Source of the DNA: Acidobacteriaceae bacterium | GTDB taxonomy: Bacteria > Acidobacteriota > Terriglobia > Terriglobales > Acidobacteriaceae | Assembly (NCBI GenBank): GCA_003140235.1 | Contig: PLJN01000189.1 | Coordinates: forward strand, 1 to 54,832 | Direction: 5' to 3' | DNA: 54,832 nucleotides | Shown here: in pieces, positions 9 through 25,996 of the stretch | Position numbering within the stretch: the first letter of the stretch is position 1 | Layout of the letters: each line of letters begins with the position of its first letter | The notes under the pieces: generated by a model | Told to the model about the DNA's origin: nothing | The model's database searches: none | Seen by the model: the letters and a program-made list of their open reading frames with translations, nothing else | Translations under genes and position numbers: made by a program

Positions 9-1841
9 TCAGTCACAAGCTGCTCCATCTTTCCTCCAAAAAGAGTTTTCCGGCGCCGGGTGGAGGTGGACCGTTTCCAGAGAATGCGACATCAGCGCGC
101 TCTTGCACAGTGCCCGTCGAATCTTACCGCTGGAAGTCTTGGGCACCTGCCCCGGTTTCAACAGCGCGACGGCATACGCCTGCACATCAAAATCACGCAC
201 GATCGCCTGCCGAATCGCTGCGACCATCTGCTGCGGCTCAGTGCGCAACGCCTCACGCTGGACTTCCTGGGCCACCACCAACCGTTCCTGCCCATCATAC
301 TCCACCGAGAATATCGCGCCAGATCCTGACTGCAATCCCGGATGGCTGGCTTGAGCGGATATCTCGAGGTCGTGCGGGTAGAGATTGCGTCCATTGATGA
401 TGACGATGTCCTTGATCCGGCCGGTGACAAACAATTCGCCTTGATTGAAAAATCCGAGGTCGCCGGTACGCAGGAACGGTCCTTCGTTTGTGTCCGCGCG
501 GTAAGCGCAAAAAGTCTTCAAAGTTTCTTCAGGACGGTTCCAATACCCCGAGGACACACTCGGACCGGAGACCCATACCTCACCGACGCGTTTGTCAGGG
601 CACGCATAGCGAGTTTCCGGATCGACAATTACAACTTTTTGGTCCGAAAAAGCTTGTCCACATCCGACGACGGGCTTCGCGTCTTTGGAATTCTCCGGCG
701 CCGGAACGGCCGTGTCCTGCTCCAGCTCTTTGCGGTCCAGATGCACGACTTTGGGGCCGGACAATGCTTTGCCCCCGGCAACAATTAATGTCGCTTCCGC
801 CAGTCCATAACATGGATAGAACGCTTTGGGATTAAAACCGCAGTCGGCAAAAGCGGCCGAGAACCGCTCCAGAGTTCCCGGGTGAATTGGTTCCGCGCCG
901 TTAAAAGCAATCTTCCAGCTGCTCAGGTCCAGAGTCGCACGCTGTTCCGGTGTGACCTTGCGGAGGCACAACTCGTAAGCAAAATTTGGACCACCGGTAA
1001 TCGTTGCGCGGACTTTGGAAATTGTCTGCAACCAGCAATACGGCTGCTGCAGAAAAGCAAACGGCGAAATAATGGTCACCGGAAAGCCCGCGAAAACCGG
1101 CTGCAGGATGCCGCCGATCAATCCCATATCGTGGTAGGGAGGAAGCCATGAAATGCCCACGCTCGACGGCTCCGATTCAAATCCACGGGCGATCAAACTT
1201 GAGTTGTGCAGCAGGTTGCCGTGGGTGATCATCACGCCGCGAGGCCGGCTGGTTGACCCTGATGTGTATTGCAGAAGAGTCACTGTGTCGCGGTGGATTG
1301 CCGCCGGACGCCACGCATCGGCCATTTCAGGCGAAACGTCGTCACTGGCAATCACGCGCGGCTCATCTCCGCCAATCACTTCCGCCCAGGCTGTGGTGAA
1401 GATTGTGGCGGCATCGGCGCTGGTCAGGACGAACTTGCTCTCCGCGTCCTTCATTAGATCCACGATCTTGGGCAGCCCCTGCCTCAACCTTCCGCGATGT
1501 CCCAGATATGTGGTGACTGCAACCGCGCCCGCGTAAAGGCATCCAAAGAACGCCGTAACAAAATCAGCTCCGGGCTGATGTAACAGCAGGACCTTGTCTC
1601 CAGCCGAAACACCCGCAGCCTGCAAAGTGGCTGCAATGGCCCGGGCTTGCTGGTCCAGCGACGCATACGAGATGCGGCTGAAGTTGTCATCTTCCGCAGA
1701 GCGCTCCTTCAGAAAAAGATAAGCTGTACGCTCCGGCTGGGTCGTGGCCCGGTGTCGCAGTAGTTCGACAAAGCTGTGCCATTCCGTTGGGGACTGGGGC
1801 CGGGCCGTGACCCCCAACGACTCTTGGAGTCGTTCAGGCAT
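9..1841 (-). CDS. Fatty acyl-AMP ligase (FAAL-type adenylating enzyme)
   Basis: Adenylate-forming enzyme of 610 residues that would activate a free fatty acid as acyl-AMP and pass it to an acyl carrier protein. The ATP-binding P-loop YTSGSTSRPRGV lies at about residues 192-203, and the C-terminal catalytic lysine motif TSSGKIRR has Lys at about 573. Length and overall layout fit the FAAL branch, which feeds ACPs, better than CoA ligases; the FAAL/FACL distinction is inferred. The start overlaps the stop of the upstream aminotransferase-reductase gene by 8 bases, so the two are probably translationally coupled. Its stop is only 8 bases from the window edge, so a downstream ACP gene would be off-window. 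It is the last visible gene of the six-gene minus-strand operon. Confidence 0.88.
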   Translation of the reverse strand: MPERLQESLGVTARPQSPTEWHSFVELLRHRATTQPERTAYLFLKERSAEDDNFSRISYASLDQQARAIAATLQAAGVSAGDKVLLLHQPGADFVTAFFGCLYAGAVAVTTYLGHRGRLRQGLPKIVDLMKDAESKFVLTSADAATIFTTAWAEVIGGDEPRVIASDDVSPEMADAWRPAAIHRDTVTLLQYTSGSTSRPRGVMITHGNLLHNSSLIARGFESEPSSVGISWLPPYHDMGLIGGILQPVFAGFPVTIISPFAFLQQPYCWLQTISKVRATITGGPNFAYELCLRKVTPEQRATLDLSSWKIAFNGAEPIHPGTLERFSAAFADCGFNPKAFYPCYGLAEATLIVAGGKALSGPKVVHLDRKELEQDTAVPAPENSKDAKPVVGCGQAFSDQKVVIVDPETRYACPDKRVGEVWVSGPSVSSGYWNRPEETLKTFCAYRADTNEGPFLRTGDLGFFNQGELFVTGRIKDIVIINGRNLYPHDLEISAQASHPGLQSGSGAIFSVEYDGQERLVVAQEVQREALRTEPQQMVAAIRQAIVRDFDVQAYAVALLKPGQVPKTSSGKIRRALCKSALMSHSLETVHLHPAPENSFWRKDGAACD

Positions 1842-4335
1842 GGGCCACCTTCATCTCTTTCAGGTCTTTGGTATCCGAAACCGGTGGTCCGGCGATCTCG
1901 AGTTTTCCTAAAGCAAAGCCATGCTTGCGCGCGGCCTTCAGGGCCCAGTCGACGCCTTCGGGCTTGATCGCACCAAACGAAACTGAATCCGTCCTGCCTT
2001 CCAGTCCCATCAGAAGAGTTTCAGCCATGCAAGCGAACACATATCCAGGTTCAAGGTCCAGACCGGCGATCAGAAAATCGTCATTCCGCGGTAGCTTGAC
2101 CAATCCGCCGCGCAGCACGGTCGCCAATGGACGTTCCACGAGAACTTGAGGCGAGACATCCGCCGGCACCGCAACATCGCAAATCACGACCGGCGCAGAC
2201 GACAAATGTCTGGCGTGAATGAGCGGCTCCGGGCTGTTGGAGGCGGCAACGATCAAATTGCATTTGCGCAATTCATCCAGATTGTCAGTGACTTCGAGGT
2301 TGTTGGACACACGCCCTATTTCTTCTACCATGGTCTTGACCCGCGGGGACTGACAGTCACGCACTACCAAAAGAACACTCTCAACCTGAGGCGCCATCAT
2401 CAGGGCCAGCGTCGCGCCGATATTGCCGCTTGCTCCCAGCACGGCCAGTTTCGATTTTCTGATATCAATGCCGGAGTCCAGGGCGGCGCGCTTCATGCCT
2501 TCAATGGCCATGCCCACGGTCAGCGAATTACCCGACGTCAGCGTAATGCCCTCCGTCGTGATTCGTTTGCAATTTCCCGACAGGATCGACGTATAGGCGC
2601 CCAAGCCGACCACCTGGCATCCATAGTCACGCGCTTGCGCGACGCCGTCTTCGATTTTGTCCATCATCCACTGGGTGTCCCGGTTGTAAATGCCCTCCAT
2701 GATCTGCTTGGGCGTGAGATCGAGACCAATATAGCTCAGATGGACTTCCTCACCTGTGACGGACGTCACATTGAGCTGGTCGTAAATGCTGCCTTGCAAA
2801 ACGCGGGAAGGCTTCTCCATGTACTCGCGCAATTTGGGTTTCAGGGAAATGAGAGAAGCGTCCCACAACAGCGCATGTTCCGGCTGCATCAGATGACCAA
2901 CAAACGCCACACGCTTTGGCGTCCGCGGAGTTTCCCGCCGGCTGAGACGAGATCCGCTGTAATCGACGATCGGGCCGGCCTGCAGGCCGACTTGATAGCT
3001 GGTGAGATGCGCGACATCCGCGGCCCGCAAGGCTTCACAGAACATTTGCAGGGCATCCACAAAACGGTCAACATCAGTCCGTGAAAGATACGCCGAGGGC
3101 TGAACCCGAAGAGTAAAACGTTCGCTCAGGGTGGGCGCCACACGAATGCAGTGGACATTCAGCAGATATGCCGCCGCCAGATAACCCAAATATTCCTGCT
3201 GCGAAAGCATTCTCAGCGTGTTCGAAGGAGAATCAGAGAGATCGTGCAACTCCATGCCCAGCATCAGTCCGCGGCCACGAATGTCTTTGACTATGTCCGG
3301 AAAGCGGTCACGAAGCTCTTGCAGCTTTCCAATCAAATAGTTCCCTGTTTCCAGCGCGCGCTTGCCCACCTGATCGCGCTCGGTGATCTCAATGGCCTTG
3401 AGCGCCAGAAAACAACTGCGGTCATCTTCGGCGAACGTCGAACTGTGTTTGAAGGAGAATTCGTCAACGAAGCGCTCGCGCTTGATGAGTAGCGCGCCGA
3501 TCTTCGCCAGGCCGCCGCCCAGCACCTTGGAAAGACAAATGTAATCAGGTTCCAGTCCCAGGTCCTGGCACGCGAGAAATTTACCCGTGCGATAGAAGCC
3601 GGTCTGGATTTCATCGGCAACAATGGGGATCTCATTTTCGCTCTGTACCTTCTTGATCCATTCGACGAATGCCGCAGGCAGGGGCTTAACGCCGCCTTCA
3701 CCCAGAATCGGCTCAATGAAGATGCCGCCAATTTCGTCAAGCTGGGTCTCTACCGCGGCCCAGTCAGACGGATCATTCATATCGATGAAGCGCACTTCGG
3801 GTCCCATGTGGGCGTATGGTTCGCGATATGAATACGTAAGCTGGACGGCCCCTGTGGTCTTGCCATGAAAAGCGCCGCGCACCGCACAGATCAAACGCTT
3901 CTGCGGACGCTCCAGCGCCAAATGTTTCAGTGCGGCTTCGACTGTTTCGGTTCCAGTGTTAGTGAAGATCGTAATGTAGTCGCCGGTGCGCTCGCTCAGC
4001 GCTTTCGCAAGTTGGGCTGCTCCGCGCCGGCACGACCCCTGCGCACTGTGCGGAACACGTTCCTGGATCAAGCGCAGCTCTTCCGCTACGAGTTCAGGAT
4101 GATAGTGCCCCAGCAGGTTGACTCCGAAGCCGCCGACTAAATCGAGAATTTTGACGAGCTGCTCTCCGCGACGCTGCCAGAGATAATCACCTTCGGCGCG
4201 CTCATACACGGCATCCAGGCTCAGCGCATGCAGCATGCGCACCAGTTCCGGGCGGCAATAGTGTCCGTAGTCGGAAACGATTTCCGGCGCCGTGCCCAGT
4301 GGAACTGTTCCTGAATCCTTTTTTATAGACTGCAT
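1834..4335 (-). CDS. Fused class III aminotransferase / AAR-like acyl-ACP reductase
   Basis: An 833-residue two-enzyme fusion. Residues about 20-440 are a PLP class III (ornithine/acetylornithine-type) aminotransferase: ADEIQTG with the cofactor Asp at 241 and CLSKVLGGG with the Schiff-base Lys at 270. After a short linker, residues about 474-820 resemble the cyanobacterial long-chain acyl-ACP reductase (AAR): VAFVGHL at its start, LGAYTSIL near 579, the NAD(P) loop LGASGNIGA at 633-641, and FACMAETLLMGLEG, whose Cys769 aligns with the acylated Cys294 of Synechococcus AAR. The expected chemistry is acyl-ACP to fatty aldehyde, then transamination to a fatty amine. This is inferred. A start with a GAGGA ribosome site lies 10 bases after the permease stop. 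PigE (prodigiosin) and TamH (tambjamine) are functional analogues, but as I recall they carry the aminotransferase at the C-terminus. Confidence 0.85.
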   Translation of the reverse strand: MQSIKKDSGTVPLGTAPEIVSDYGHYCRPELVRMLHALSLDAVYERAEGDYLWQRRGEQLVKILDLVGGFGVNLLGHYHPELVAEELRLIQERVPHSAQGSCRRGAAQLAKALSERTGDYITIFTNTGTETVEAALKHLALERPQKRLICAVRGAFHGKTTGAVQLTYSYREPYAHMGPEVRFIDMNDPSDWAAVETQLDEIGGIFIEPILGEGGVKPLPAAFVEWIKKVQSENEIPIVADEIQTGFYRTGKFLACQDLGLEPDYICLSKVLGGGLAKIGALLIKRERFVDEFSFKHSSTFAEDDRSCFLALKAIEITERDQVGKRALETGNYLIGKLQELRDRFPDIVKDIRGRGLMLGMELHDLSDSPSNTLRMLSQQEYLGYLAAAYLLNVHCIRVAPTLSERFTLRVQPSAYLSRTDVDRFVDALQMFCEALRAADVAHLTSYQVGLQAGPIVDYSGSRLSRRETPRTPKRVAFVGHLMQPEHALLWDASLISLKPKLREYMEKPSRVLQGSIYDQLNVTSVTGEEVHLSYIGLDLTPKQIMEGIYNRDTQWMMDKIEDGVAQARDYGCQVVGLGAYTSILSGNCKRITTEGITLTSGNSLTVGMAIEGMKRAALDSGIDIRKSKLAVLGASGNIGATLALMMAPQVESVLLVVRDCQSPRVKTMVEEIGRVSNNLEVTDNLDELRKCNLIVAASNSPEPLIHARHLSSAPVVICDVAVPADVSPQVLVERPLATVLRGGLVKLPRNDDFLIAGLDLEPGYVFACMAETLLMGLEGRTDSVSFGAIKPEGVDWALKAARKHGFALGKLEIAGPPVSDTKDLKEMKVAHA

Positions 4336-4345: not shown

Positions 4346-5683
4346 TCACGAAGTCTTCGTCTGCAAATTCAATGCTGCAGCGTTCTTGTACCGCGTCGAC
4401 CACCACACCGTAACCGCGGAAACCAACACCAGGCCTAGCGCGGTTGCCAGCACCTGCACCGTCTTACCCTTGATGCCGAACAACGCCAGGATTCCAGCGA
4501 TCGGCAAAATGCCAATCAAGGCCCACTGGAGCCAGACGGGCAGCGGACTGCGGAACGTCCTGCGTGCATTGGGCTGCGTCTTGCGCAAGCGCAGGACTGC
4601 CCACATGAACGCGGCATAAACAAAACAGACAATCGCCGATCCAGTGACCGCCGCGACCTCTTCTAATTCAAACCTAACGATCACCACGGAGGCAATCGAA
4701 GCCAACACTCCCAGCGCCAGCACGCCGCCAATGGGCGCGCCGGTGGTGAGCGAAATCTTGCCCCAGGATTTCGGGAAATTGCCTTCACGCGCAAGAGCAT
4801 GAATCAGGCGCGATCCGCCCATCACGCCGGCGTTGAAGCACGAAACAATCGCCAGGATGGATAGCACCAGCCCAACAACGCTGCCGCGCGGTCCAAAGAT
4901 CTGGACGAAATACGGAAGCTGCGGAATAGCGGTCCCCGTGACGGCTTCGACCGGCAACCGTGTAGCCAGCGCCAGCGAAAAGATGCAATAGGCGACAACA
5001 TTGGTGAGAATCGCCAGCGGCATAGAGATGGGGATTTTCCGCTCATACGCTTTGGCGGTAAAACCCATCATGGTGACCCACTCAAATCCAATGAAGAGGT
5101 AGACGGCGGAGCCGACTGCGTCCCCAATCTGAGACAAGGGATGTCCCGCCATGATCGTTGTGGCGTTCCAGTGCAGATTGCTCAAGTGCGATCCTGCTCC
5201 GGTAGCGCCCAGGGCCAGAACGCCTAAAATCAACGCCGTAGTCGTAAACATCTGGACACCGCGTGGAAGTTCCAGCCCAAGAAGATTGACGATCACCGTG
5301 CAGGCGAGAAGTGTCAGTACCACCGCTAGCGCCGGGAGTTGCGGGAAAAGTTGCCGAACGACCAGCGCGAACAGGTAGCTTTCAATTCCCGCCACCATAA
5401 TCATGAACATCAAGTAGAGGTAAACCAGAAACAGCGAAGTACGCGGCGGTAGCGCAACTTTCAGATAAGTGCGTACACCCGGGGCCGAAGGATACATGCT
5501 GGCCAATTCTGCAATCGAACTCGAAAGCAGCATGCAGACAACGCCGGCCAGACAAATGGATACGATGACCCAAAAGCTGCTGGCCACCTTAAACATCTCG
5601 GAGAGAATGGTAAAAGAGCTGATGCCGAAGGCGATGCCCGCCCCGAACGTCACATAAAAACCCAGCTCAAATATTTTCTTCAT
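4346..5683 (-). CDS. APC-family amino acid/polyamine permease
   Basis: A 445-residue polytopic membrane protein with about 12 hydrophobic segments and the general look of the amino acid-polyamine-organocation superfamily. It opens with FELGFYVTFGAGIAFGISSF and carries SAVYLFIGFEWVTMMGF in the middle. It would move an amino acid, amine or related cation across the inner membrane; direction and substrate cannot be read from the sequence. It sits inside the lipid/amine operon, 27 bases after the SCP2-like gene and 10 bases before the aminotransferase-reductase. A role in supplying the amino donor or exporting an amine product is plausible but inferred. A GAGGGG sequence precedes the start. Confidence 0.82.
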   Translation of the reverse strand: MKKIFELGFYVTFGAGIAFGISSFTILSEMFKVASSFWVIVSICLAGVVCMLLSSSIAELASMYPSAPGVRTYLKVALPPRTSLFLVYLYLMFMIMVAGIESYLFALVVRQLFPQLPALAVVLTLLACTVIVNLLGLELPRGVQMFTTTALILGVLALGATGAGSHLSNLHWNATTIMAGHPLSQIGDAVGSAVYLFIGFEWVTMMGFTAKAYERKIPISMPLAILTNVVAYCIFSLALATRLPVEAVTGTAIPQLPYFVQIFGPRGSVVGLVLSILAIVSCFNAGVMGGSRLIHALAREGNFPKSWGKISLTTGAPIGGVLALGVLASIASVVIVRFELEEVAAVTGSAIVCFVYAAFMWAVLRLRKTQPNARRTFRSPLPVWLQWALIGILPIAGILALFGIKGKTVQVLATALGLVLVSAVTVWWSTRYKNAAALNLQTKTS

Positions 5684-5710: not shown

Positions 5711-6100
5711 TTACAGGCCCCAAATGATCATTGCGATTGCTTCCAGTTTCACTTTGTCGCGGTCACCGGAAAAGACTGCCAGCGCGCCGTCAATCAGCGC
5801 GTGCGCCGGGTTGTATTTGCCGAGAAAAATCCGGACCAGGGTTTCTTGCGCGGCCTGAAGCGTAATCACGTCCTCGTCACCTTCCGGACGCGGACAGCCG
5901 GACTCCACCTTGGTGATGGTGAGGTCTTCGATGGTCACCGTGTATATCTCGTTGGTGTCGGTGGATTCGGCCTTGAGAAACCGGTTCCAGCCCTTGATCA
6001 ACTTCTTCACGCGCTGGTTTGCATTGAACGTTTTTTGGAAATCATGCAGCGAATCCAGCAGGATGCTGGTCTGGACCGCGCTCACATCTGTGGTAGCCAT
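5711..6100 (-). CDS. Small SCP2-like lipid-carrier domain protein
   Basis: A 129-residue soluble protein. The second half (ALIDGALAVFSGDRDKVKLE and flanks) has the pattern seen at the end of sterol-carrier-protein-2 domains, which hold a fatty acyl or other hydrophobic ligand in a pocket; the first half is acidic and helical. The assignment is by pattern, not a confirmed match. It lies 6 bases after the acyl-CoA dehydrogenase-like gene and its AGGAG ribosome site overlaps the end of that gene, so the two are co-transcribed. In this operon it could hold or present the acyl chain to the neighbouring enzymes. Confidence 0.6.
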   Translation of the reverse strand: MATTDVSAVQTSILLDSLHDFQKTFNANQRVKKLIKGWNRFLKAESTDTNEIYTVTIEDLTITKVESGCPRPEGDEDVITLQAAQETLVRIFLGKYNPAHALIDGALAVFSGDRDKVKLEAIAMIIWGL

Positions 6101-6106: not shown

Positions 6107-7372
6107 TTATCTCCTCTGCTCCCCGTCCCAGGGTTGGGGAATACCCAAAATCTGCCGTCCTACAATCAACTTCAAAGAATCATCGGATGGGGCCATCACC
6201 GAGCCCGCCCGCGCATCGCGCACCAGCCGCTCCACCGGATGGCCCCGCTTGTATGCCGTGCCGCCGCAAACCTGGAAGGCCTTGCCGGTGACTTCCATGG
6301 CGATCTCATTCACCGCGAACTTGAGCTGGGCCAGCTCGATGAAATAAGGATCATCCGGATTCTCGCGAATCACCTCATCCAGCAGATCGGCGGAATTCAG
6401 CTCATTAAAGAGGACGGTGGCGTTGTCCGACATCTGGGCCACGCGATAGACCATGCAGCGGGCTTCGTCCACCCGCATCTTCATTTCGGCGATGTAGCGC
6501 TGTACCGTTTCCACCTGCGCAAGCGACTGCTTGGTGTCGCTGTGTATGCGCTTTTTCACGTGAGCTACGGCCGCATCGTAGGCAGCCTGGGCGATTCCGA
6601 GATACACGGTTGCCAGCCCAACTTGATAGGCAGGCAGCGAATACGCGAACAGCATGGAGAAGCCGCAGGTCGGCGAACCGAGCCGTGCTTCTTCGGGTAC
6701 CTGACATCCTTTGAAGTGGATGGGCATGCTGCAGTTGCCGCGCAGCCCCATGCCGTCCCATTTGCCGATGGGCAGGATGTTGGGATCTTTTCCCTCAATC
6801 ACAAACAAACTGAGTTCGTTGGGCCCGACCTTGTCGTCGGCGCGCACCGGCACCACGTAGAAATCTGCCTGTCCGCAACTGGTGCAGAAAGACTTGAAGG
6901 AATCAATCAGATAGCCTTTGTCATTTTTCTGGGCAAAACTGTCCATATGCCACAGACGGTTGCCGGAACCGGGTTCGCTCATGGACAGAGCGCCAATCCA
7001 ACGACCTTCAATGATGGGTTTCACGAAGGCTTCAATCTGGCTGCCCTGAGCCAGAGCGCCGATCATGGGCAGCGTGCTCATGTGCATGCAAACGACCATG
7101 GCCGTGGAAGCGCACCCCTGGGCCAGTTCTTCGAGCACCATGGCGTACGTCAAGATTCCTTCGCCCGGGCCGCCAAGATGCTTGGGGATGAGCAAGCCCA
7201 TCAGTCCAGCATCAGCAACGGCCTTCAGGCTTTCACGTGGATAGCTGCCTTCCTGATCAACCTGGGCGGCATTCGGCGCCAGTGATTTCTGGGCCACGCT
7301 CTTGGCCAGTCTCTTCCACTTTCCCTGCTCAACGGTCAGTGCAATTCCAGTTAAATTTAATGCATCAGGCAT
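6107..7372 (-). CDS. Acyl-CoA dehydrogenase-family flavoprotein
   Basis: A 421-residue protein with the full acyl-CoA dehydrogenase fold: N-terminal helical domain with a GLLIPKHLGGPG motif, central beta domain with LSMSEPGSGN, and C-terminal helices with FQVCGGTAYKRGHPVERLVR. These enzymes use FAD to desaturate acyl thioesters at C2-C3. At the position where medium-chain enzymes have the catalytic Glu (YEGT-type motif) this protein reads VMAPSDDSL, so the usual base is not seen. It may use another residue or have drifted to a different flavin reaction. In an operon with a FAAL and an acyl-ACP reductase it most likely acts on an ACP- or CoA-bound chain, like the TamP-type step in tambjamine synthesis (inference). 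AAGGA lies 11 bases before the start. Confidence 0.85.
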   Translation of the reverse strand: MPDALNLTGIALTVEQGKWKRLAKSVAQKSLAPNAAQVDQEGSYPRESLKAVADAGLMGLLIPKHLGGPGEGILTYAMVLEELAQGCASTAMVVCMHMSTLPMIGALAQGSQIEAFVKPIIEGRWIGALSMSEPGSGNRLWHMDSFAQKNDKGYLIDSFKSFCTSCGQADFYVVPVRADDKVGPNELSLFVIEGKDPNILPIGKWDGMGLRGNCSMPIHFKGCQVPEEARLGSPTCGFSMLFAYSLPAYQVGLATVYLGIAQAAYDAAVAHVKKRIHSDTKQSLAQVETVQRYIAEMKMRVDEARCMVYRVAQMSDNATVLFNELNSADLLDEVIRENPDDPYFIELAQLKFAVNEIAMEVTGKAFQVCGGTAYKRGHPVERLVRDARAGSVMAPSDDSLKLIVGRQILGIPQPWDGEQRR

Positions 7373-7454: not shown

Positions 7455-8723
7455 TCATAATGCAACATTGGCTTTCCCGTTGGCTTTTACAGGCTCCAGT
7501 TCAACGTTCAAGCGCTTGGCAATCCGCTCCATGGTTTCCACCAGGCGCGATGCATGGCCGTCGTTGTGTGCGGCGGTGCAGGAAATCCGCAACAGGTTCT
7601 GGGCGGCCGCGGGCTTGACCACCGGATTGACGTAGATACCTTCTTCCAACAACTGCTTGGCCATCAGGAACAGCGCGACATCCTCTTGAATCACCACGGC
7701 GACCACGGGGCTGCGCGCCTGGATCACGTTGAACCCGAGCGCTGACAGATCAGCCCGTATCTTGGCGGCAATGACCATGGGTGCATTGCGCCGATCCGGT
7801 TCTGTTTTCAATATTCGCAAGGCGGCGCGGGCCGTCTCGACCGAGGCAGGGGGAACGCTGGCCGAGAATACGAATGGCTGTGCCAAATGTTTTAGATAGT
7901 GAATGACCGGCTCGGTGGACGCCACAAATCCGCCAGCAGCCGCCAGAGACTTACTGAAAGTACCCATGATGACGTCGACGTCCTTCAACACACCCTGTTC
8001 TTCCGCCACGCCCGCGCCGGTTGGACCAAACAGTCCGATTCCGTGGGCTTCGTCAACATAAGTGCGTGCGCCATAGCGGGCCGCGATCTCGGTCAGGGCT
8101 TTAAGGTCGGCCATGTCGCCTTCCATGCTGAACACGCTCTCGGTCACGATGAGCGCGCCTTCATCGCACTGCTGCAGGCGCTTCTCCAGATGCTGCATGT
8201 CGTTGTGGCGGAACCGCACACTGCGCGCTTCGGACCGCAGCGCTCCATCCACCAGGCTGGCGTGGAGGTTGTGTTCGCAAAGAATGACTTCGCCCTCCTG
8301 GGCCAGCGCCGCGATGACTGCATAATTCGCCTGGAATCCGGTACCCAGGACCAGCGCGGCTTCCTTGCCCACAAATTCCGCCAGCTCTTCTTCCAACGCC
8401 ACATGGATGCTTAAGGTCCCATTCAGCAAACGTGATCCGCTGCAGCCGGTGCCGTACTTGTGAATGGCGGCGATGGCGGCTTCCTTGACGCGGGGATCGT
8501 TGGTCAAATCCAGATAATCATTGGAGCCGAACATCAGGATCTTGCGGTCACCCAGCATGATTTCGCTGGCGCCGCAGCCTTCACGGGTGCCGAACACCTC
8601 GAAATAGAGATAGAGACCAGCCTCCTGCAGCGCCCGGGCACGGTTGAAATTCCAGCATTTCTCGAAGATATCCTTGCGAGTAGACCTTGCAGGGCTGGAT
8701 TGGGCGGTCGAAAGGTCTTCCAT
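7455..8723 (-). CDS. Alpha-oxoamine synthase (serine palmitoyltransferase / AONS / KBL family)
   Basis: A PLP enzyme of 422 residues that condenses an amino acid with an acyl thioester and releases CO2, giving an alpha-amino ketone. Motifs seen are the glycine-rich GTGCSGSRLLNGT, VDEAHGIG (cofactor Asp and His) and GTFSKSLAAAGGF with the Schiff-base Lys at about 258. The family includes serine palmitoyltransferase, 8-amino-7-oxononanoate synthase and 2-amino-3-ketobutyrate ligase; the sequence alone does not settle which. The start was placed at the second Met because an AGGAG lies 9 bases before it, whereas the first Met, 30 bases upstream, lacks one. It is the first gene of the lipid/amine operon, which would make it either the chain-entry enzyme or a separate branch yielding a sphingoid-like base. 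Confidence 0.86.
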   Translation of the reverse strand: MEDLSTAQSSPARSTRKDIFEKCWNFNRARALQEAGLYLYFEVFGTREGCGASEIMLGDRKILMFGSNDYLDLTNDPRVKEAAIAAIHKYGTGCSGSRLLNGTLSIHVALEEELAEFVGKEAALVLGTGFQANYAVIAALAQEGEVILCEHNLHASLVDGALRSEARSVRFRHNDMQHLEKRLQQCDEGALIVTESVFSMEGDMADLKALTEIAARYGARTYVDEAHGIGLFGPTGAGVAEEQGVLKDVDVIMGTFSKSLAAAGGFVASTEPVIHYLKHLAQPFVFSASVPPASVETARAALRILKTEPDRRNAPMVIAAKIRADLSALGFNVIQARSPVVAVVIQEDVALFLMAKQLLEEGIYVNPVVKPAAAQNLLRISCTAAHNDGHASRLVETMERIAKRLNVELEPVKANGKANVAL

Positions 8724-8732
8724 GTGATTCAA

Positions 8733-8737
8733 CTCCT
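8733..8737 (-). promoter_or_regulatory. Ribosome binding site fixing the alpha-oxoamine synthase start
   Basis: The minus strand reads AGGAG followed by a 9-base spacer and ATG at 8723. This supports initiation at that codon and not at the ATG at 8753, making the product 10 residues shorter than the longest open frame. Confidence 0.75.
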
Positions 8738-8798
8738 GAAATTGACTGCACATCTGTTAGCTCGGTTCGCCTTGGCAAACCAGGGTCCAATGGCCTTC

Positions 8799-9069: not shown

Positions 9070-9840
9070 ATGAGCTCACCATCGGCCTTTCCCGCCACAG
9101 ACAAGCGCCACCCTGCTCCTATCCTGGACGCAACGTTAATCACGTCTGTGCCTCTGACATCGTTCGCCCAGCACCTTACGTTTCAGGTGGAAGGCGGGGT
9201 GAAGGGTAACGACCGGCTGGAGTTCCTGCCCGGACAGTCTGTCCGCATCGAAGTAGCACTGAATGGCCGGCCTACGCCGTTTGCCTATTCGATCGCTTCG
9301 CCTCCCAACGAAGACAACCGCTTTGAGCTTTGCTTAAAGGGCGTCAGCAAGGGATCACCGGCAGACAACCTGCGAGAACTTAAAGAAGGCACGCGAGTCC
9401 GCGTGACGCATCCGCAGGGCCATTTCGTGTTGCAGCAACCGGTAGGCGACACCATTTTTCTCGCCGCGGGCACTGGCATCGCGCCCATTCGTTCTATGGT
9501 CCACTGGCTCATGAAATCGAGCGATTGTCACCAGGGGGCGCGGGTCTGGCTGTTTTTTGGCGCGAGAAACCACGAGTCACTTTTCTTCGATCGTGAGTTT
9601 CTAGAGTTGGCGCGGCAGAATCCGAATTTTCACTACATCCCCACGCTGAGCCGGTCCCATTCAGAATGGACCGGCGCACGCGGACACGTCCAGGAACATT
9701 TTCTCCGCTTGGCGCCCTCGGGAGAGCCCATTCATGCCTATGCCTGCGGCCCTCCGGCAATGGTCACCGACGTCCGCAAGTTACTCAGCGAACAGGGCTG
9801 GCCTGACGCGCTGGTCCATTTCGACCATCACGAATTCTAA
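9070..9840 (+). CDS. Ferredoxin-NADP reductase-family flavoprotein
   Basis: A 256-residue oxidoreductase with an FAD-binding beta barrel (PFAYSIASPP, about residues 76-85, fits the RxYS-like flavin motif) followed by an NAD(P) domain (FLAAGTGIAPIRSM near 137-150; ACGPPAMV near the end). It has no 2Fe-2S ferredoxin domain, so it would hand electrons to a separate partner. It is transcribed divergently from the lipid/amine operon and could serve a redox enzyme there, for example the acyl-CoA dehydrogenase-like protein, but this is only positional. The ribosome site before the start is weak, so the exact start is uncertain. Confidence 0.8.
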   Translation: MSSPSAFPATDKRHPAPILDATLITSVPLTSFAQHLTFQVEGGVKGNDRLEFLPGQSVRIEVALNGRPTPFAYSIASPPNEDNRFELCLKGVSKGSPADNLRELKEGTRVRVTHPQGHFVLQQPVGDTIFLAAGTGIAPIRSMVHWLMKSSDCHQGARVWLFFGARNHESLFFDREFLELARQNPNFHYIPTLSRSHSEWTGARGHVQEHFLRLAPSGEPIHAYACGPPAMVTDVRKLLSEQGWPDALVHFDHHEF

Positions 9841-10419: not shown

Positions 10420-12972
10420 TTACTTGTGACCCCAAAGGCTCCATCCCTGTAGCGGGCGAAAACTCAGCTGCAGTCCAGCACTCACGTTGGTTTTCGGGGT
10501 TGCCGCAAGCAGTGGGAAATTCCAATGTTCATACTTAGCTACGACCGTCAACACCAGGCTTCTCCTCTGGACAATGCTGCCGGTCAAATCAAAGTCTCTC
10601 AAGTAGCCGCCCTGCAGGAATTCCGGGTTCACATGCTGGGTGCGGTAATGCAATTGAACAGTGTTCGTGCTCGTAAAGTGGTACGTCGCCCAGACATTGA
10701 CACCCCGTCCTTCCCGGCCAATCGCGTTGCCGATGATCTGGCCATAATTCGTGTAGCCGCTTAAGTAATGGCCATTGAAATACGCGACTCCCGTGCTTCC
10801 CAGGCTGGGAATGTCTGTATAGACGCCTTCCGCTCTTAATTCTACCTTCAAAAGTTTCGGTAGCCGGGGCAGGTAGAGGCCGGCCCGGAACGACGATTTA
10901 CGCGGGAAGGAGACAGGTGTATATTCGTCTTCGGTAAACGAATCGCCATAGAACGTGAGCCAGTTGCGAAGGCGGGGGACGCGGTACGAAAAATCAAAGG
11001 CCGAGCGGCGGTCTCCGGGATCGTTGGCCGCGCCCGGCACGGTATTTCCACTTGGCGAGTAGGTGCGCAAGAGACTGCGCAGCGTCAGCGGGAAGCCCGG
11101 GCCGCTCAAGATCCCTGTCACTCCAAACCCGAACTCCACATTGCGCGTCGGCTTGAAGGAGAATTTCAGTCCCTGAACAAACGGATGAGGGTGCAGCGGG
11201 GCGCTCACCACCTTCCTCTTGCCGGTGGCATCGAACAACGCCACAAACTGCTGTCCACCCAGCTGCCCAAAGAACATCTCCGCGCGAATCGGCCCGAACA
11301 GACGGAAGACGGAAGGCAGCACCAACGGCGAAGCCCGCGAGATGCGCAACAGGGGGAGCGGCTCGGCATTATTGCTGGCCAGGAAAGGTCCGTCGGCCCC
11401 CGGCCCCCACCATAGCGTCTGCTTGCCAATCGAAATCACATTATTGTGAAAGGTGAAGGAAGCATACGCCTCCAGAAAGCGCAAACGATCGAGCGAATCG
11501 GTCCGCTGTGGCGGAGCGAAAGGCAGGCCTTCCAGGCTGATAATGGCCTGCTGCGCGGCCGCACCCTGGACCGGAAGTGTGCCGGCATGCTGGTATTCAC
11601 CGCGCACATAAAATGCCAGCGGCCCCACTACTGCTCTCCCGGAAACTCCGGCTACGGCGTTGGCGCCACTTCCAAACGGCCGGCCGAAATCGTCAGTGAA
11701 GGTCTTGGCGAAGTGGTAGTCATCGGCGAGGGGCGTGCCGGAAAGAAAGCCAACGCGCGCATAGATCTCCTCAATGCGGGCATCCGGCTGCGTCTGCTTT
11801 CCCTCTATCTCCATCTGAAATTCCGACGCCAGTCGCGCGTACAGGTCCGACTCCGTACCAGACCCCCCAGGATCGATTTCCTGCCCCGCTTCCTGCACCA
11901 GTCGTGCGCATTCCGAGCGCGTCCACGGCCGCAGTCCCGCCACCGCGGTGTCGATATAGCCCATCGCCGTCAGACGGTCGAGGGACGGATATACCCAGCT
12001 ATCGATGGAGACATAGGTCGTCCCCGTCAGCGGAGCTTCCGGTATGAAGTTCCCGTACTGTATATTGTCCAGTTCCCGATTGTGATGTGCGTTATAGATC
12101 TGCCGGCCGGTGAGCCATCCCGTCACGCTCCCGACGAGCACGTCGGAAGGGAAATGCTGGCGCGCGGTCACGCGAGACAGGCTTACGGCGGTGGCGCCGC
12201 CGTACACCACAAGCTGGGACAGCCACCCTGGATACTCGTGCGCAAAGACCGAAGCCGCCGCCCAACTCAACGTGCTGTGAGCGGATGGAAAAGAGCTATT
12301 GAACCGGCTGGAAGTGAAGAACCTGCCGTCACCACCGGTCAGGGTGGGGCGGGCCCGGGCCGTCAGGACGTTCAGGGCTTCATCCACGATCAGACTGTCC
12401 ACGACTGCTTCACCGGCCAGTATGCCGGTCTCGTGCTCCCGGCGTGAACCGTTCAATAGACTACTGACATACGTCACCGCGGGCAAACCCAGCATGAGCG
12501 CCAATCCGGCGTTCGATATCGTTGTGCTCCGGCGCACGGCGGTGGCGTTGGAATGTTCCCGGGCCAGGCTTTGCTGATCACTCCCGATCAAGACACCAGA
12601 AGTGACCATGAGCGGGACCAACCAGGTGAGATCCTGGATGCGGGCCTTGAACGGCGAAGTCCAGATCGTGAGCTGGTCACGGGGCAGGCTTCGGACAGCA
12701 CTTTTAATGGTTACATCTGGCGGGTCGGTCTTCCCTGCCTGCGACAATGCGGGCGCTTCACTGGGAAAAGGTAGAGAATTCTTCCGGTAAGGTACCGCAG
12801 ACTCCTCGGCAGTTGCCGGCTGCGCGGGGCTCGGCGCATCGACGCAAGGGGCCGTGACGTCGCCGTCTCTGACGCTGGCGGGGCCGCAGGCGGGTGAAGT
12901 CGGGACAGTGTGCTGCGCCAGAGCTGCGGCAACACAAAGAAAAAACGCTGTTAAGTTGCGAAGCCAGGACAT
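10420..12972 (-). CDS. PAP2 phosphatase fused to a Wzi-like outer-membrane capsule-assembly barrel
   Basis: An 850-residue exported protein with an N-terminal signal peptide. Residues about 110-290 form a type 2 phosphatidic acid phosphatase domain with the motifs RARPTL, PSAHS (229-233) and SRVTARQHFPSD (266-277), which are the phosphatase signature residues. From about 330 to the end it resembles Wzi/capsule-assembly outer-membrane barrels: GKQTLWWGPG, alternating aromatic beta strands and a C-terminal strand ending in GWSLWGHK. Wzi anchors surface polysaccharide, and PAP2 domains dephosphorylate lipid phosphates such as undecaprenyl pyrophosphate. The fusion may link lipid-carrier recycling with polymer attachment (inference). 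It is divergent from nothing and stands alone beside the exopolysaccharide locus. GAGGG precedes the start. Confidence 0.82.
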   Translation of the reverse strand: MSWLRNLTAFFLCVAAALAQHTVPTSPACGPASVRDGDVTAPCVDAPSPAQPATAEESAVPYRKNSLPFPSEAPALSQAGKTDPPDVTIKSAVRSLPRDQLTIWTSPFKARIQDLTWLVPLMVTSGVLIGSDQQSLAREHSNATAVRRSTTISNAGLALMLGLPAVTYVSSLLNGSRREHETGILAGEAVVDSLIVDEALNVLTARARPTLTGGDGRFFTSSRFNSSFPSAHSTLSWAAASVFAHEYPGWLSQLVVYGGATAVSLSRVTARQHFPSDVLVGSVTGWLTGRQIYNAHHNRELDNIQYGNFIPEAPLTGTTYVSIDSWVYPSLDRLTAMGYIDTAVAGLRPWTRSECARLVQEAGQEIDPGGSGTESDLYARLASEFQMEIEGKQTQPDARIEEIYARVGFLSGTPLADDYHFAKTFTDDFGRPFGSGANAVAGVSGRAVVGPLAFYVRGEYQHAGTLPVQGAAAQQAIISLEGLPFAPPQRTDSLDRLRFLEAYASFTFHNNVISIGKQTLWWGPGADGPFLASNNAEPLPLLRISRASPLVLPSVFRLFGPIRAEMFFGQLGGQQFVALFDATGKRKVVSAPLHPHPFVQGLKFSFKPTRNVEFGFGVTGILSGPGFPLTLRSLLRTYSPSGNTVPGAANDPGDRRSAFDFSYRVPRLRNWLTFYGDSFTEDEYTPVSFPRKSSFRAGLYLPRLPKLLKVELRAEGVYTDIPSLGSTGVAYFNGHYLSGYTNYGQIIGNAIGREGRGVNVWATYHFTSTNTVQLHYRTQHVNPEFLQGGYLRDFDLTGSIVQRRSLVLTVVAKYEHWNFPLLAATPKTNVSAGLQLSFRPLQGWSLWGHK

Positions 12973-13315
12973 TCAGCCCTCAAGAAAAGAGGAGTATTTT
13001 GCTACCACCGCACTGGTAAGACAGTACGGCATGAACGACTGTTCTGGCAAGGACAGGACTTTGGGGAGACTTCGCGCCATTGGCCAAAACAAAAAAGAAG
13101 TATGTGCAGGGGGACGGAATTGTCACGGTGGGCTTCTGGAGGCAGCCCGTGGCGCCGGGTATTTGCAAAGGCGTGCTTGCCTGAAGGTGAGCTTCAGAAA
13201 AGCTACCGGATGCGCACCCTCGCGCCTAAGAGTCAGCGTTAAGAACGCCTCTTCTGCGGATCACCGCTCCGGTCAACGGCGTCCCGAGGGCTTAGGCGCA
13301 ATACCCTTCCAGTCT
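12973..13315. other. Intergenic stretch, nothing recognised
   Basis: Gap of 343 bases between the PAP2-Wzi gene and the end of the dehydratase gene, both on the minus strand. It must hold the promoter of the PAP2-Wzi gene next to 12973, but no clear promoter, terminator or small gene was seen. Confidence 0.4.
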
Positions 13316-15343
13316 TCAATCCCCTGGCTGTTCCGCCTCAGGATAGGGATAAAGGAAGCGACTGAGACGTGTACCGATCTTTGGGGACCCCTTGTCCCGT
13401 CCTGGCGCTGGGTCGTTTCGTGAAAGGGAAAGGGCCGCTTCTTTCTCCGCAGACGCGGGCTGTGGCTCCGCGAAGTCGATTGGGAGAGAATCAAGTAATC
13501 TACAAATTTCGTCTTGGTCTGCTCGCTGGGCGGCGGCTCTCTCCAACTCAAGAATTTGGTCTGATATACCAGGCTGCAAAGGACTGCCCTTGATGCGACG
13601 TACGTTAGGAAACCGCGTACTAGTTACTTCGGCATTCTCCTGCCAAAGCCGCTCATGCAACTTTTCGCCAGGACGAACGCCTACAATTTGAATGGGGACA
13701 TCAATGTCTGGACGCAGCCCAGACATGAGGATCAACTTGCGCGCGAAATCCATGATCTTCACCGGATCGCCCATATCCAGCATGTAAACATCCCCTCGGG
13801 AGGCGAGCGTCGCAGCCTGCAAGACCAGCTGAACGGCCTCAGGAATACTCATGAAATAGCGCGTCATCTGTTCATGAGTAATGGTCACGGGTCCGCCTGC
13901 TTCGATTTGGCGCAGAAAGGTTGGAACCACACTGCCCCGGCTTCCGACAACATTGCCAAATCGCACGCAGGCAAACTGGGTCTTAGTGTTGCCTGTGGCA
14001 CACTCGGCGCGATGTTGCACGATGATCTCTGCGATTCGCTTAGTGGCACCCATGATGTTCGAGGGGCTGCACGCCTTGTCGGTTGAAATCATCACAAACC
14101 GTTCGCAGTTAAACCTGTCCGCGTGTTCCACTAACTGCCGCGTGCCGGTAACATTGTTTAATATCGCCTCGCAAGGATGTGACTCCATCAGCGGAACATG
14201 CTTGTACGCAGCGGCGTGAAGCACTATATCAGGGGCATGAAGCCGGAAAAGCTCTTCCAGCATAGTTGCATCCCGAATGTCTCCGACCCGCGGGATGATT
14301 TCGATCTTCGCAGAGGCCAGCTCGTTCACCAGTTCGAAGATAGAATTCTCATCTTGATCTAGGAGGATCAACTTCAAGCTGGGAAGCAGCGATATCTGAC
14401 GAGCGATTTCTGAGCCAATGGAACCGCCTGCACCGGTTACTAACACGCAACGGTTGCTGAAACAAGAAACCACAGGAGAACTCGCGCCATTTTGTTCATA
14501 CGTTCCCAGCATCTGCTCGATCCGCACGCTGCGGCTCACCCGCACGCGACCACGCACTAAGTCTCGAGCTGTGGGAAGAATGCGTATTTCGACACCCAAC
14601 TCAGCGGCCTGGGCCATAATCTCATCCGCCGCAGTCATACCGCCGCTGGTCATGAGCACCAACTGAACTCGATGCAGGACGATCATTTTCTGCAACACGC
14701 CGAAACCACCGAGGATCGGGACACCGGCAACCGTTCGCCCGCGCATGGCGTGCTCATTGGTAATGATGCCAACCAATTGAACGTCCGGATAGGGTTCAAT
14801 CAAGCTTACCGCCCCGGCGACCGAGGTCTCGTCGGTAACTAAGAGTGTGCGGTAGTTGGGTTCGTTTCTGGCGCGGCCAGCGTTGTGGGTCCATCGCCGG
14901 AATATCCGGAGAGAGCCAGCGAAGATGACAAAGAGGTTTAGCTCAATGAGCGCGATGCTGATCGGGAGAGTTGGTATATGAAGACCGAAGCCATGTGAAA
15001 AACGAAAAACCAGGACACCCACAGTCAAAAGCGACGACTTCAGCGCCAGTTCTACACCGTCCGCAAGATGAAAGTGTCGCCAAGTAGGCCGGTACGCTCT
15101 GCTGAGCAGCAACGTCAAGGGACGCGCCACAGCAAACAAAGGGAGCCAGACGAAGAATTGCGGAAACCACGGTACGACCCGCAACTCGCCACGTATGAGA
15201 CACGCACAAGCGAGAGCAAGGGTGGCGGCCCCCCCGTCAAGTGCCAGTTGCATCCCGCGGCGAAGCATCCATTGTGGCGGTCGCTCAAACCACTTTCCAA
15301 CTGATCTCACTATATGTCCAGGGTTCATTATGGGAGCCCACAT
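13316..15343 (-). CDS. FlaA1/CapD-type membrane-anchored nucleotide-sugar 4,6-dehydratase
   Basis: A 675-residue protein. The N-terminal 150 residues carry about four transmembrane helices and the SRAYRPTWRH motif typical of WbpM/PglF/CapD proteins. A CoA-binding-like domain follows, and from about 300 there is an extended SDR domain with TGAGGSIGSEI (303-313) and STDKACSPSNIMGATKR. In that motif the usual active-site Tyr is replaced by Met, as in the inverting UDP-GlcNAc dehydratase family. It probably converts a UDP-N-acetylhexosamine into a 4-keto-6-deoxy sugar, the first step to deoxyamino sugars for the exopolysaccharide. It is divergent from the export operon. The start could also be at 15328; neither Met has a strong ribosome site. 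Confidence 0.88.
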   Translation of the reverse strand: MWAPIMNPGHIVRSVGKWFERPPQWMLRRGMQLALDGGAATLALACACLIRGELRVVPWFPQFFVWLPLFAVARPLTLLLSRAYRPTWRHFHLADGVELALKSSLLTVGVLVFRFSHGFGLHIPTLPISIALIELNLFVIFAGSLRIFRRWTHNAGRARNEPNYRTLLVTDETSVAGAVSLIEPYPDVQLVGIITNEHAMRGRTVAGVPILGGFGVLQKMIVLHRVQLVLMTSGGMTAADEIMAQAAELGVEIRILPTARDLVRGRVRVSRSVRIEQMLGTYEQNGASSPVVSCFSNRCVLVTGAGGSIGSEIARQISLLPSLKLILLDQDENSIFELVNELASAKIEIIPRVGDIRDATMLEELFRLHAPDIVLHAAAYKHVPLMESHPCEAILNNVTGTRQLVEHADRFNCERFVMISTDKACSPSNIMGATKRIAEIIVQHRAECATGNTKTQFACVRFGNVVGSRGSVVPTFLRQIEAGGPVTITHEQMTRYFMSIPEAVQLVLQAATLASRGDVYMLDMGDPVKIMDFARKLILMSGLRPDIDVPIQIVGVRPGEKLHERLWQENAEVTSTRFPNVRRIKGSPLQPGISDQILELERAAAQRADQDEICRLLDSLPIDFAEPQPASAEKEAALSLSRNDPAPGRDKGSPKIGTRLSRFLYPYPEAEQPGD

Positions 15344-15463
15344 TCAAATGTCTTCGTGCTTTGCTTTTCATAACTCACACGCCACCCGCCGCGAGTACTC
15401 TTCCGCAGTGAGAACGCATTCAAACCAAACATAGGATTCTAACAGACTAGGCCGCCGGGGATA

Positions 15464-15520
15464 GCGTTTTATTTTGTCAAGACTTGATTATTTCTATTAT
15501 TTCTTGATTTGCTAAAACGC
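15464..15520. repeat. AT-rich inverted repeat in the divergent control region
   Basis: Arms 15464-15481 and 15503-15520 share outer GCGTTTTA/TAAAACGC (8 perfect pairs) and inner TCAAG/CTTGA (5 perfect pairs), separated by 21 AT-rich bases. A further CTTGA sits just inside the left arm. This is a plausible regulator binding site placed between two divergently read polysaccharide genes. Confidence 0.55.
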
Positions 15521-15705
15521 AGGTACGCGAGGTATCCTGAACTGCGCCAAACGGCGAGTCACTACTAAATATTTATTCTCAGCAGCCCGCTCAAGTGTAG
15601 CGGAGCCCGCAAGGTTTTGCTCCGAGAGATCAAACTGCGGTTTCTTGATTCTGTTGAGTAAATTTGTCGAGCGGTGCGATGCAGCGGCGGGACATTTCCG
15701 TGGGC

Positions 15706-15710
15706 GGGAG
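15706..15710 (+). promoter_or_regulatory. Ribosome binding site fixing the export-protein start
   Basis: GGGAG followed by 9 bases and ATG at 15720. This selects the Met that begins a clean signal sequence rather than the ATG at 15645, which would put 25 charged residues in front of it. Confidence 0.75.
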
Positions 15711-15719
15711 CCTTGTTCA

Positions 15720-18224: not shown

Positions 18225-18235
18225 AGGGAGTGGTC

Positions 18236-19483: not shown

Positions 19484-19486
19484 ACC

Positions 19487-24555: not shown

Positions 24556-25304
24556 CTCAGATGCTCACCGTGTATGGCTATCCTTCGCAGGCTTTCTGGC
24601 GCGCATTTGAGCTGGACGCGCTTTCCCGGGTGACGATGGAGCGTCCCATCCTTGAATTGGGTTGTGGCAACGGTGGCTTTACCCGGCAGGCCTGCGGCAC
24701 GGTAGAAGTGGGAATCGACATCAATCCCCGGGCCGTCGAGCAAGCGGGCAAAACAACGGCATTTGGAACGGTGCGCTTGCAGGATGCCCGGAAACTCGAA
24801 AACAAGCCGCAGTTTGCAACCGTCCTCGCCAACTCCGTTCTTGAGCACATCTCAGATGTGCAGTCGGTCCTGGAAGGCTGCTTTCGGGCTCTCCGGCCGG
24901 GAGGCAAGCTAGTAACCACCGTACCGCTCCAGGACATGAATCTAGGCATGCTCTTCTCTTCCCCGGCGTGGATACGCTACCGCCAAGATAGGTTGTGCCA
25001 TGTCAACTTATGGTCTCTTGGAGAATGGATAGCTACGCTCCATAAAGCCGGATTCGACGTAACTCTGACGGAACGTTTTCTCTCGCCCCAGCAGATACGC
25101 GTCTGGGACTGCATGGATGGCATTGCAGTGCTCGGTACCCGCCGGATCAACGCGGGAGGTGTATCGGGGAAGCTCACCAAAGCGCTTCCTGGCGCATGGC
25201 AGCGACTTATTTACTCCTCTTATTCCAGGGTGCTAAGTTCCCAACTGAAGGACGACGGATCAGAGAACGGATGCTGTGCGCTAATCGTCGCCAGCAAGCC
25301 ATGA
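24534..25304 (+). CDS. Class I SAM-dependent methyltransferase
   Basis: A 256-residue methyltransferase of the type 11 pattern: PILELGCGNGGFTRQACG (SAM motif I), GIDINPRAVEQ (acidic end of strand 2), ANSVLEHISDV (motif IV) and ALRPGGKLVTTVP. It probably methylates a sugar hydroxyl or a lipid-linked intermediate; the substrate is unknown. The start at 24534 is chosen because AAGGA lies 10 bases before it and the protein fold begins soon after. The same frame stays open 390 bases further upstream, but that part is antisense-like read-through of the glycosyltransferase. It lies in the middle of the exopolysaccharide operon. Confidence 0.82.
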   Translation: MPSATQLTQMLTVYGYPSQAFWRAFELDALSRVTMERPILELGCGNGGFTRQACGTVEVGIDINPRAVEQAGKTTAFGTVRLQDARKLENKPQFATVLANSVLEHISDVQSVLEGCFRALRPGGKLVTTVPLQDMNLGMLFSSPAWIRYRQDRLCHVNLWSLGEWIATLHKAGFDVTLTERFLSPQQIRVWDCMDGIAVLGTRRINAGGVSGKLTKALPGAWQRLIYSSYSRVLSSQLKDDGSENGCCALIVASKP

Positions 25305-25347
25305 GCAGTGGCTGCTCGGCACGGCGCCGTGGTATAACTAGCTGATT

Positions 25348-25989: not shown

Positions 25990-25996
25990 GCCTGTT

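Follow-up and report, generated by a model that had tools for sequence, protein, structure and literature searches.

A putative aminotransferase–acyl-ACP reductase fusion encoded in an apparent sphingoid-type operon of an Acidobacteriaceae bacterium

We have analyzed a stretch of 54,832 nucleotides from the genome of an Acidobacteriaceae bacterium, comprising the whole of contig PLJN01000189.1 (C7, one of 204 contigs in the assembly) and referred to here as the window. Close to its start is a gene encoding a fusion protein, in which a class III aminotransferase is joined to a domain of the acyl-acyl carrier protein (ACP) reductase (AAR) type. Our conclusion is that this protein is probably a fatty-amine synthase of the TamH/PP_2782 type, encoded within an apparent sphingoid-type operon in which a pool of acyl-ACP would feed both an amine and a sphingoid branch. 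Both the motifs of the protein and its analogy with published enzymes point to a fatty-amine synthase.

The positions of the fusion gene, its domains and its neighbors are collected in Table 1. An initial annotation, made by inspection of the sequence without database searches, had placed the gene at exactly these coordinates, leaving the strand unstated; it is encoded on the minus strand, and frame 1 of the plus strand over the same interval is interrupted by stop codons. The N-terminal half is matched by the Pfam model Aminotran_3 over residues 42–369 (E = 1.6e-59). Its best matches in the PDB are the transaminase half of PigE, followed by CrmG and putrescine aminotransferase, and the NCBIfam model for PigE gives 334 bits on this domain against a cut-off of 850. 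The presence of an aminotransferase of this class, with Lys270 as its predicted pyridoxal phosphate (PLP) lysine, is thus confirmed by profile, PDB match and motif position.

Assignment of the C-terminal half required a different approach. The sole Pfam match is to the generic Rossmann model Shikimate_DH (residues 624–731, E = 1.2e-8), so that AAR identity could not be demonstrated from Pfam alone. Identity is provided by phmmer, using the C-terminal 378 residues as query against the PDB. Synechococcus AAR was retrieved over residues 61–353 of this half (6jzq, E = 4.9e-17; 6jzu, E = 5.8e-17), together with 6jzz (E = 1.4e-15) and the N-terminal reductase of PigE (4ppm, E = 6.3e-15). These four are the only distinct sequences in the PDB with E ≤ 0.01. 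A match to AAR had been named beforehand as the test of the assignment, and it was obtained. When the AAR half was run against 2800 shuffled sequences, 200 for the window protein and 200 for each of 13 relatives, its best score was 28.5 bits, with E = 2.1. Cyanobacterial AAR makes the aldehyde for alkane formation.

The motifs in this half noted initially are present, and align with Synechococcus AAR as had been claimed. LGASGNIGA begins at residue 633 and contains the predicted nucleotide-binding loop, and FACMAETLLMGLEG begins at residue 767. Within the latter Cys769 coincides with the catalytic Cys294 of the Synechococcus enzyme; the same residue is serine in 6jzz. An AlphaFold model of the fusion calculated from a shallow alignment (3 rows) had a mean predicted local distance difference test (pLDDT) score of 41.9, too poor for use.

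Table 1. Location in the window of the fusion gene, its domains and predicted functional residues, and the adjacent genes
Feature	Positions	Strand	Basis
Aminotransferase-AAR fusion, 833 aa, uninterrupted single open reading frame (ORF)	1834..4335	minus	ORF and translation, Pfam, phmmer
Class III aminotransferase domain, residues 1–455 (N-terminal; boundary set by us)	2971..4335	minus	Pfam, PDB matches
Lys270 codon, predicted PLP lysine, motif SKVLGGG	3526..3528	minus	Motif position, alignment
AAR domain, residues 456–833 (C-terminal)	1837..2970	minus	phmmer 6jzq/6jzu/6jzz and PigE 4ppm
Nucleotide-binding loop G634-A-S-G637-N-I-G640 (G634xxG637xxG640)	2416..2436	minus	Aligned with GATGDIG of Synechococcus AAR
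Cys769 codon, predicted acyl-accepting cysteine	2029..2031	minus	FACMAE aligned with FACFAE of AAR
Alpha-oxoamine synthase, serine palmitoyltransferase (SPT)-like, first gene of set	7455..8753	minus	PDB and NCBIfam ranking
Acyl-CoA dehydrogenase (ACAD)-fold flavoprotein	6107..7372	minus	Pfam, alignments
129-aa protein, weakly SCP2-like; may be a lipid carrier	5711..6100	minus	Pfam, below cut-off
APC-superfamily amino-acid permease	4346..5683	minus	AA_permease_2, E = 8.5e-24
Fatty acyl-AMP ligase (FAAL)-type protein; 8-bp overlap with fusion gene; contig begins at base 1	9..1841	minus	AMP-binding and DIP2-like C-terminal domain

The neighboring genes, on which the initial annotation was silent, are the least ordinary part of the locus. 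Along the minus strand the order is SPT-like synthase, ACAD-fold protein, 129-residue protein, permease, fusion and FAAL, with gaps of 82, 6, 27, 10 and −8 bp. Four further genes of the set are found in this genome on another contig, C100, encoding a desaturase, an ACP, a short-chain dehydrogenase/reductase (SDR) resembling 3-ketodihydrosphingosine reductase (KdsR), and a PAP2 protein. In G524, a genome from another species of this genus (hereafter the relative), the corresponding genes are consecutive on a single contig. All ten genes keep their order and orientation in the two species, with 59–86% identity; in order these are SPT-like 77, ACAD-fold 86, 129-residue protein 75, permease 84, fusion 76, FAAL 67, desaturase 79, ACP 81, SDR 75 and PAP2 59%. 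The ten genes apparently form one operon. The fusion has both a putative activating enzyme and an ACP as potential partners, with the FAAL adjoining it and the ACP located on C100 here and contiguous in the relative. Towards C100 the set has no sharp edge: beyond it the two species share a metallophosphatase-like protein as well (51% identity), and in between both carry GMC oxidoreductases that are dissimilar (23%).

The sphingoid character of the set is suggested by two of its enzymes in particular. The best PDB matches of the oxoamine synthase are to SPT (8guh/3a2b, 317 bits), with the next family about 84 bits lower at 233 bits, and SPT is also ranked first in NCBIfam, at 426 bits. For the SDR of each species the best NCBIfam model is KdsR, matched over nearly the full length at 310 and 313 bits. 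The FAAL-type protein has its best PDB matches to a polyketide-synthase chain (7r7g, 541 bits) and a saframycin-synthetase chain (3kxw, 450 bits), with FadD32 lower at ~320 bits. Its scores against the NCBIfam fatty-acid–AMP ligase models reach 433 bits, where the cut-off for that model is 975, and are all below cut-off; despite this the PDB ranking favors a FAAL-type identity.

A scheme that would connect these activities can be proposed, its chemistry being deduced from sequence throughout. The FAAL would activate a fatty acid and load it onto the ACP of the set. Cys769 of the reductase domain would accept the acyl group from the ACP, and NAD(P)H would reduce it to the aldehyde. This is probably passed on without free release, judging from the motifs and TamH biochemistry, to the aminotransferase domain, where PLP on Lys270 would convert it into a long-chain primary amine. 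Such an amine had been suggested initially as the product, and the motifs and the published biochemistry of TamH make it still the best reading. The SPT-like synthase could draw on this acyl-ACP as well, generating a 3-keto long-chain base for the KdsR-like enzyme to reduce. Given supply by FAAL and ACP, the fusion and the SPT-like synthase would thus constitute two nitrogen-introducing exits from a single acyl-ACP pool. The locus would provide a compact set for fatty-amine production in which FAAL, ACP and fusion are separately encoded. If the reading of the neighborhood is correct, fatty-amine synthases also occur outside alkaloid clusters, and certain acidobacteria would produce a lipid containing a chain derived from an amine, which could escape routine lipid searches.

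The survey for further examples called for in the initial annotation revealed the same fusion in the relative, in a metagenome-assembled genome (MAG) of the cyanobacterium Xenococcus (55% identity) and at other loci. Since it recurs in the relative and in Xenococcus, it is neither a chance event nor an artefact of assembly. Codon differences between the window gene and that of the relative number 158, 92 and 482 at positions 1, 2 and 3 (829 codons), and are thus mostly at the third position; the nonsynonymous divergence dN is ~0.17 and the synonymous divergence dS is saturated. At a threshold of E ≤ 1e-60 the fusion occurs in 3/396 genomes of the phylum and 2/300 of the family, counts that include the present genome. 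Among the nine members of the genus in the family survey it is found in this genome and the relative. A scan of genome contigs with the fusion gave two loci, one being the contig of the relative already in the family survey. Among the 72,556 records of a plasmid collection, 16 match 80% or more of the protein at a single place, loci of reversed domain order included, and nine of the sixteen were fetched.

We examined 13 other fusion loci. The aminotransferase precedes the AAR domain in ten, and is at the C-terminal end in those of Methylocystis, Pseudoalteromonas xiamenensis and Thioclava, the last being counted as reversed without separate alignment of its AAR half. The PLP lysine is aligned in all 11 fusions of the same order (the window and ten relatives), and the AAR cysteine in all ten that retain the AAR end, that of the acidobacterium G008 being cut by the end of its contig. 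In an 18-row tree built from the aminotransferase part (some rows long-branched, rooted at the midpoint only) the window and the relative group together with support of 100/98, and these two with Xenococcus at 93/93. A group of five, made up of these three, the acidobacterium G072 and Photobacterium, is supported at 100/100. The aminotransferases of the three reverse-order proteins lie on the same side as the single-domain aminotransferases of the present genome (96/95). Counting the window and the relative as one lineage, five of ten same-order lineages have an adenylating partner or an ACP with the fusion. These are the present genome and the relative, with FAAL and ACP; G008, where a FAAL-ACP is encoded nearby; G072 and Leisingera, in each of which an adenylation domain is fused on; and P. 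phymatum, with a fused ACP and an adjacent FAAL.

The loci of reversed order bear upon one alternative, in which the set would be an alkaloid cluster of the prodiginine or tambjamine type. The fusion would then make an amine tail like TamH or a ring precursor like PigE, with the oxoamine synthase and ACAD-fold protein equivalent to PigH and PigA. The Thioclava, Methylocystis and Pseudoalteromonas plasmid loci do combine a class I/II (oxoamine-type) aminotransferase, an ACAD, an AMP ligase, an ACP and a transaminase/AAR protein, and so overlap with the set in gene classes. However, these are the very loci with the aminotransferase at the C-terminal end. Moreover, their polyketide/ketoacyl synthase, methyltransferase and PEP/pyruvate-binding protein are not among the ten genes, to which this comparison was limited, the rest of the genome not having been searched. 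The window oxoamine synthase is 34–35% identical to theirs, compared with 40–51% to nine free-standing SPT-like proteins of Acidobacteriota, while the AMP ligase matches two of theirs weakly (E = 7e-15 and 3e-7) and has no match in the third locus. An alkaloid cluster is therefore very unlikely. Its prodiginine form was rejected on the grounds of domain order and the genes missing from the ten-gene set.

A number of observations weigh against a fatty-amine synthase in a sphingoid-type operon. Some concern profile scores. No cut-off was passed among the NCBIfam matches listed for the oxoamine synthase, SPT scoring 426 bits against a cut-off of 640 and bioF 356 against 426, so that bioF comes nearer to its own cut-off; an SPT-like protein from another member of the Acidobacteriota, encoded two genes from a PAP2 gene, is likewise below cut-off (441 against 640). 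The SDR falls below the KdsR cut-off of 400 in both species, and the PAP2 protein matched phosphoinositol-dihydroceramide synthase at just 23.6 bits of the required 480, for the relative's protein only. No ceramide synthase was identified, although none was searched for. Other points concern context. The join of C7 to C100 depends on 14 bp shared by the end of C100 and the start of the window, together with contiguity in the relative. The match to the C100 desaturase, 79–80% identical to that of the relative, ends 25 bp from the contig end, where the ORF is still open. SPT-like homologues (E ≤ 1e-95) are present in 76/396 genomes of the phylum, making this a common type of gene there, unlike the fusion. 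We fetched ten of these 76 neighborhoods and compared their ORFs with the set at E ≤ 1e-4. Neither the fusion nor the ACP nor the KdsR-like SDR had a match in any of them. A homologue of the PAP2 protein lies close to the SPT-like gene in three, which favors the sphingoid reading, but this is the only sphingoid pairing of the set that recurs among the ten. A FAAL match (25% identity) occurs in one locus and an ACAD match (23%) in one. At L061 the ORF caller missed the SPT-like gene, though the homologue survey had placed it there, and at L057–L059 a ketosynthase-like gene (tested by profile for L057 only) adjoins the SPT-like gene. A last point against is that the stretches fetched around five other fusions yielded neither a FAAL nor an ACP match, these being the fusions of Xenococcus, Photobacterium, Haematobacter, Rhodovulum and Pseudorhodobacter. 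In these five lineages a housekeeping acyl-ACP could serve the fusion. By eye, an ACP-like ORF can be seen in the Photobacterium stretch.

The ACAD-fold protein is also a source of difficulty. It has Ala394 where the usual glutamate stands and Tyr249 at the alternative position (glutamate in the Methylocystis relative), these being what we take to be the sites of the ACAD catalytic base. It therefore has a catalytic glutamate at neither location, and from its sequence may not be a simple dehydrogenase. Because it differs from a normal dehydrogenase in this way, an exact parallel with the TamA-TamT-TamH system is weakened, which is a further point against our preferred reading. Matches in the PDB include, across residues 31–397, the nitrososynthase 3mxl (84.5 bits) and the FAD-dependent oxidoreductase 3m9v (113 bits), presumably an N-oxygenase.

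These properties would be explained if the product were a simple N-capped or N-oxidized fatty amine, on which the ACAD-fold protein acted as an oxygenase, with reduced flavin supplied by a flavin/ferredoxin-type NAD(P)H reductase encoded at 9070–9840, divergently from the SPT-like gene. A paper on the nocuolin cluster names genes for an AAR, an aminotransferase and an N-monooxygenase together. Yet ordinary acyl-CoA dehydrogenases outscore 3mxl and 3m9v, at up to 185 bits, the 9070–9840 reductase found no match within the fetched region of the relative, and the SPT-like, KdsR-like and PAP2 genes would be left without explanation. We consider this alternative improbable.

The SCP2 match of the 129-residue protein is below the Pfam cut-off in both species (E = 0.0044 in the window and 0.00058 in the relative), and for the window protein Alkyl_sulf_C (0.0042) and DUF6036 (0.0097) are about equal to SCP2. 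It was found in 1/396 genomes of the phylum, namely the present one; the relative, which also has it, stood outside that sample. An AlphaFold model from an alignment of 2 rows had a mean pLDDT of 40.7 and was not used.

In another alternative the substrate of the fusion would be a modified chain (hydroxy, unsaturated or keto), and the fusion and the sphingoid enzymes would act in sequence on a single molecule, giving a lipid with two nitrogens. The desaturase, ACAD-fold protein and SDR of the set could each modify the chain, and KecF is proposed to use an ACP-bound polyketide (PMC6498172). Nonetheless we give action in series little credence. SPT-like and AAR enzymes both free the chain from its thioester, and because each does so a chain with two activated ends would be needed; no gene of the set directly indicates one.

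If, as we prefer, the fusion is a fatty-amine synthase drawing on the same acyl-ACP pool as the sphingoid enzymes, what might the two branches produce together? A tentative suggestion, and on balance a doubtful one, is an undescribed class of amino-lipid. The FAAL/ACP pool would be split between an SPT/KdsR long-chain base and the fatty amine made by the fusion, with the amine either joined to the base or replacing its N-acyl chain. Such a product would resemble a sphingolipid but contain a chain derived from a fatty amine.

Several features were observed at the other fusion loci. Two proteins have three parts: one of 1480 residues in G072 with the order adenylation-aminotransferase-AAR (L015:10186-14628), and one of 1395 residues in Leisingera with the order aminotransferase-AAR-adenylation (L019:12010-16197). 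In G008, from another acidobacterial family, the fusion cut by the contig end is found with a glycosyltransferase-like gene (by eye), a possibly incomplete FAAL-ACP ORF and an ACAD-fold protein (L036, G008:C65:1-6799), a group resembling the TamA/TamT/TamH trio. MMPL/RND-type transporters are encoded near the fusion in four of the ten same-order relatives, which suggests lipid export: Xenococcus (L009:7240-9492), Photobacterium (L017:18441-21035), Leisingera (L019:16203-18593) and G072 (L015:14621-16543, where the RND match is below cut-off only). Directly downstream of the cyanobacterial fusion is a FemAB-like GNAT acyltransferase (L009:12511-13674) that could N-acylate the amine. A gene for a VPLPA-CTERM protein adjoins the fusion in Haematobacter (L018:10508-11242), Rhodovulum (L023:14748-15464) and Pseudorhodobacter (L035:12773-13465); the three proteins are mutually homologous (36–44% identity), and in Rhodovulum the exosortase XrtD is encoded close by as well. 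That fatty amines might be linked to exosortase anchoring is speculation, and such a link was rejected for the window, since among four genomes (G000, G524, G072 and G008) a PF09721 match occurs in G008 only and not in the present genome.

Elsewhere in the window, the partly searched stretch 10420–28674 contains capsule/exopolysaccharide genes, encoding a Wzi-PAP2 protein, an epimerase, an SLBB export protein, Wzz, a flippase-like protein and a glycosyltransferase fused to a sugar transferase. The interval 42558–48119 encodes a protein of 1853 residues with five DUF11 repeats and an FG-GAP-like repeat, which is probably exposed at the surface.

Comparison with known systems corrects one aspect of the initial annotation, which knew of no described AAR-aminotransferase fusion and assigned a reductase of another type to TamH and PigE. 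TamH, PigE, KecF, PP_2782 and three thermophile homologues of the last have been published. The claim of novelty fails as a result, and by the same token the functional inference gains support. PtTamH of Pseudoalteromonas tunicata, from the pathway to tambjamine YP1, has the transaminase followed by the AAR domain, as in the window fusion, and its C-terminal domain is termed an AAR homologue, with 27–28% identity to cyanobacterial AARs, Cys887 and a GxxGxxG motif (PMC9594044). TamA and TamH together convert C12 acid into C12 amine, free acyl-CoA not being accepted (PMC9594044). By this description the two proteins share an N-terminal class III transaminase, a C-terminal AAR-type reductase with GxxGxxG and cysteine, and partnership with a fatty-acid-activating enzyme and an ACP, the last being a TamH feature not shown for every member. 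They differ in that TamA is a single ANL-ACP protein where the present set has separate genes for FAAL and ACP, and in that TamH lies in a bipyrrole cluster and the window fusion among sphingoid-type genes.

The PP_2782 paper reports transaminase activity for such fusions and maps the AAR cysteine, reductase activity not being determined; it lists 230 homologues with comparable clusters, in a table without Acidobacteriota (PMC10829540). KecF is proposed to operate in like manner, releasing an ACP-bound polyketide chain for a tetrahydropyridine alkaloid (PMC6498172). As described, PP_2782 and KecF resemble the window fusion in domain order and in a catalytic cysteine and NADP(H) loop that map to AAR 6JZU, but have different neighbors. 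PigE of prodigiosin biosynthesis acts in the formation of 2-methyl-3-n-amylpyrrole (MAP), and its N-terminal half has been modeled on AAR (PMC8341465); the window AAR half retrieves it, as noted above. It too fuses an AAR-type reductase to a class III transaminase, although in the reverse order. Cyanobacterial AAR (6JZQ/6JZU) is a homologous reductase with aligned cysteine and nucleotide loop, but is free-standing.

For the sphingoid genes the closest parallel is the Caulobacter SPT-AcpR-AasR module, where SPT, ACP and acyl-ACP synthetase form a trio comparable to the SPT-like synthase, ACP and FAAL of the present set (PMC9386255). In each, an SPT or SPT-like synthase has its own ACP and lies near an enzyme that activates fatty acids. 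The sections available describe no aminotransferase-AAR fusion in that module, and a search of open-licence literature, judged by the titles and abstract openings listed, found no description of such a fusion among sphingoid genes, which is weak evidence of absence. The present set is distinguished by its FAAL-type ligase, together with the KdsR-like SDR, the desaturase and the weakly SCP2-like protein. Thus the architecture of the fusion was already published, and it is the genomic setting that is unusual.

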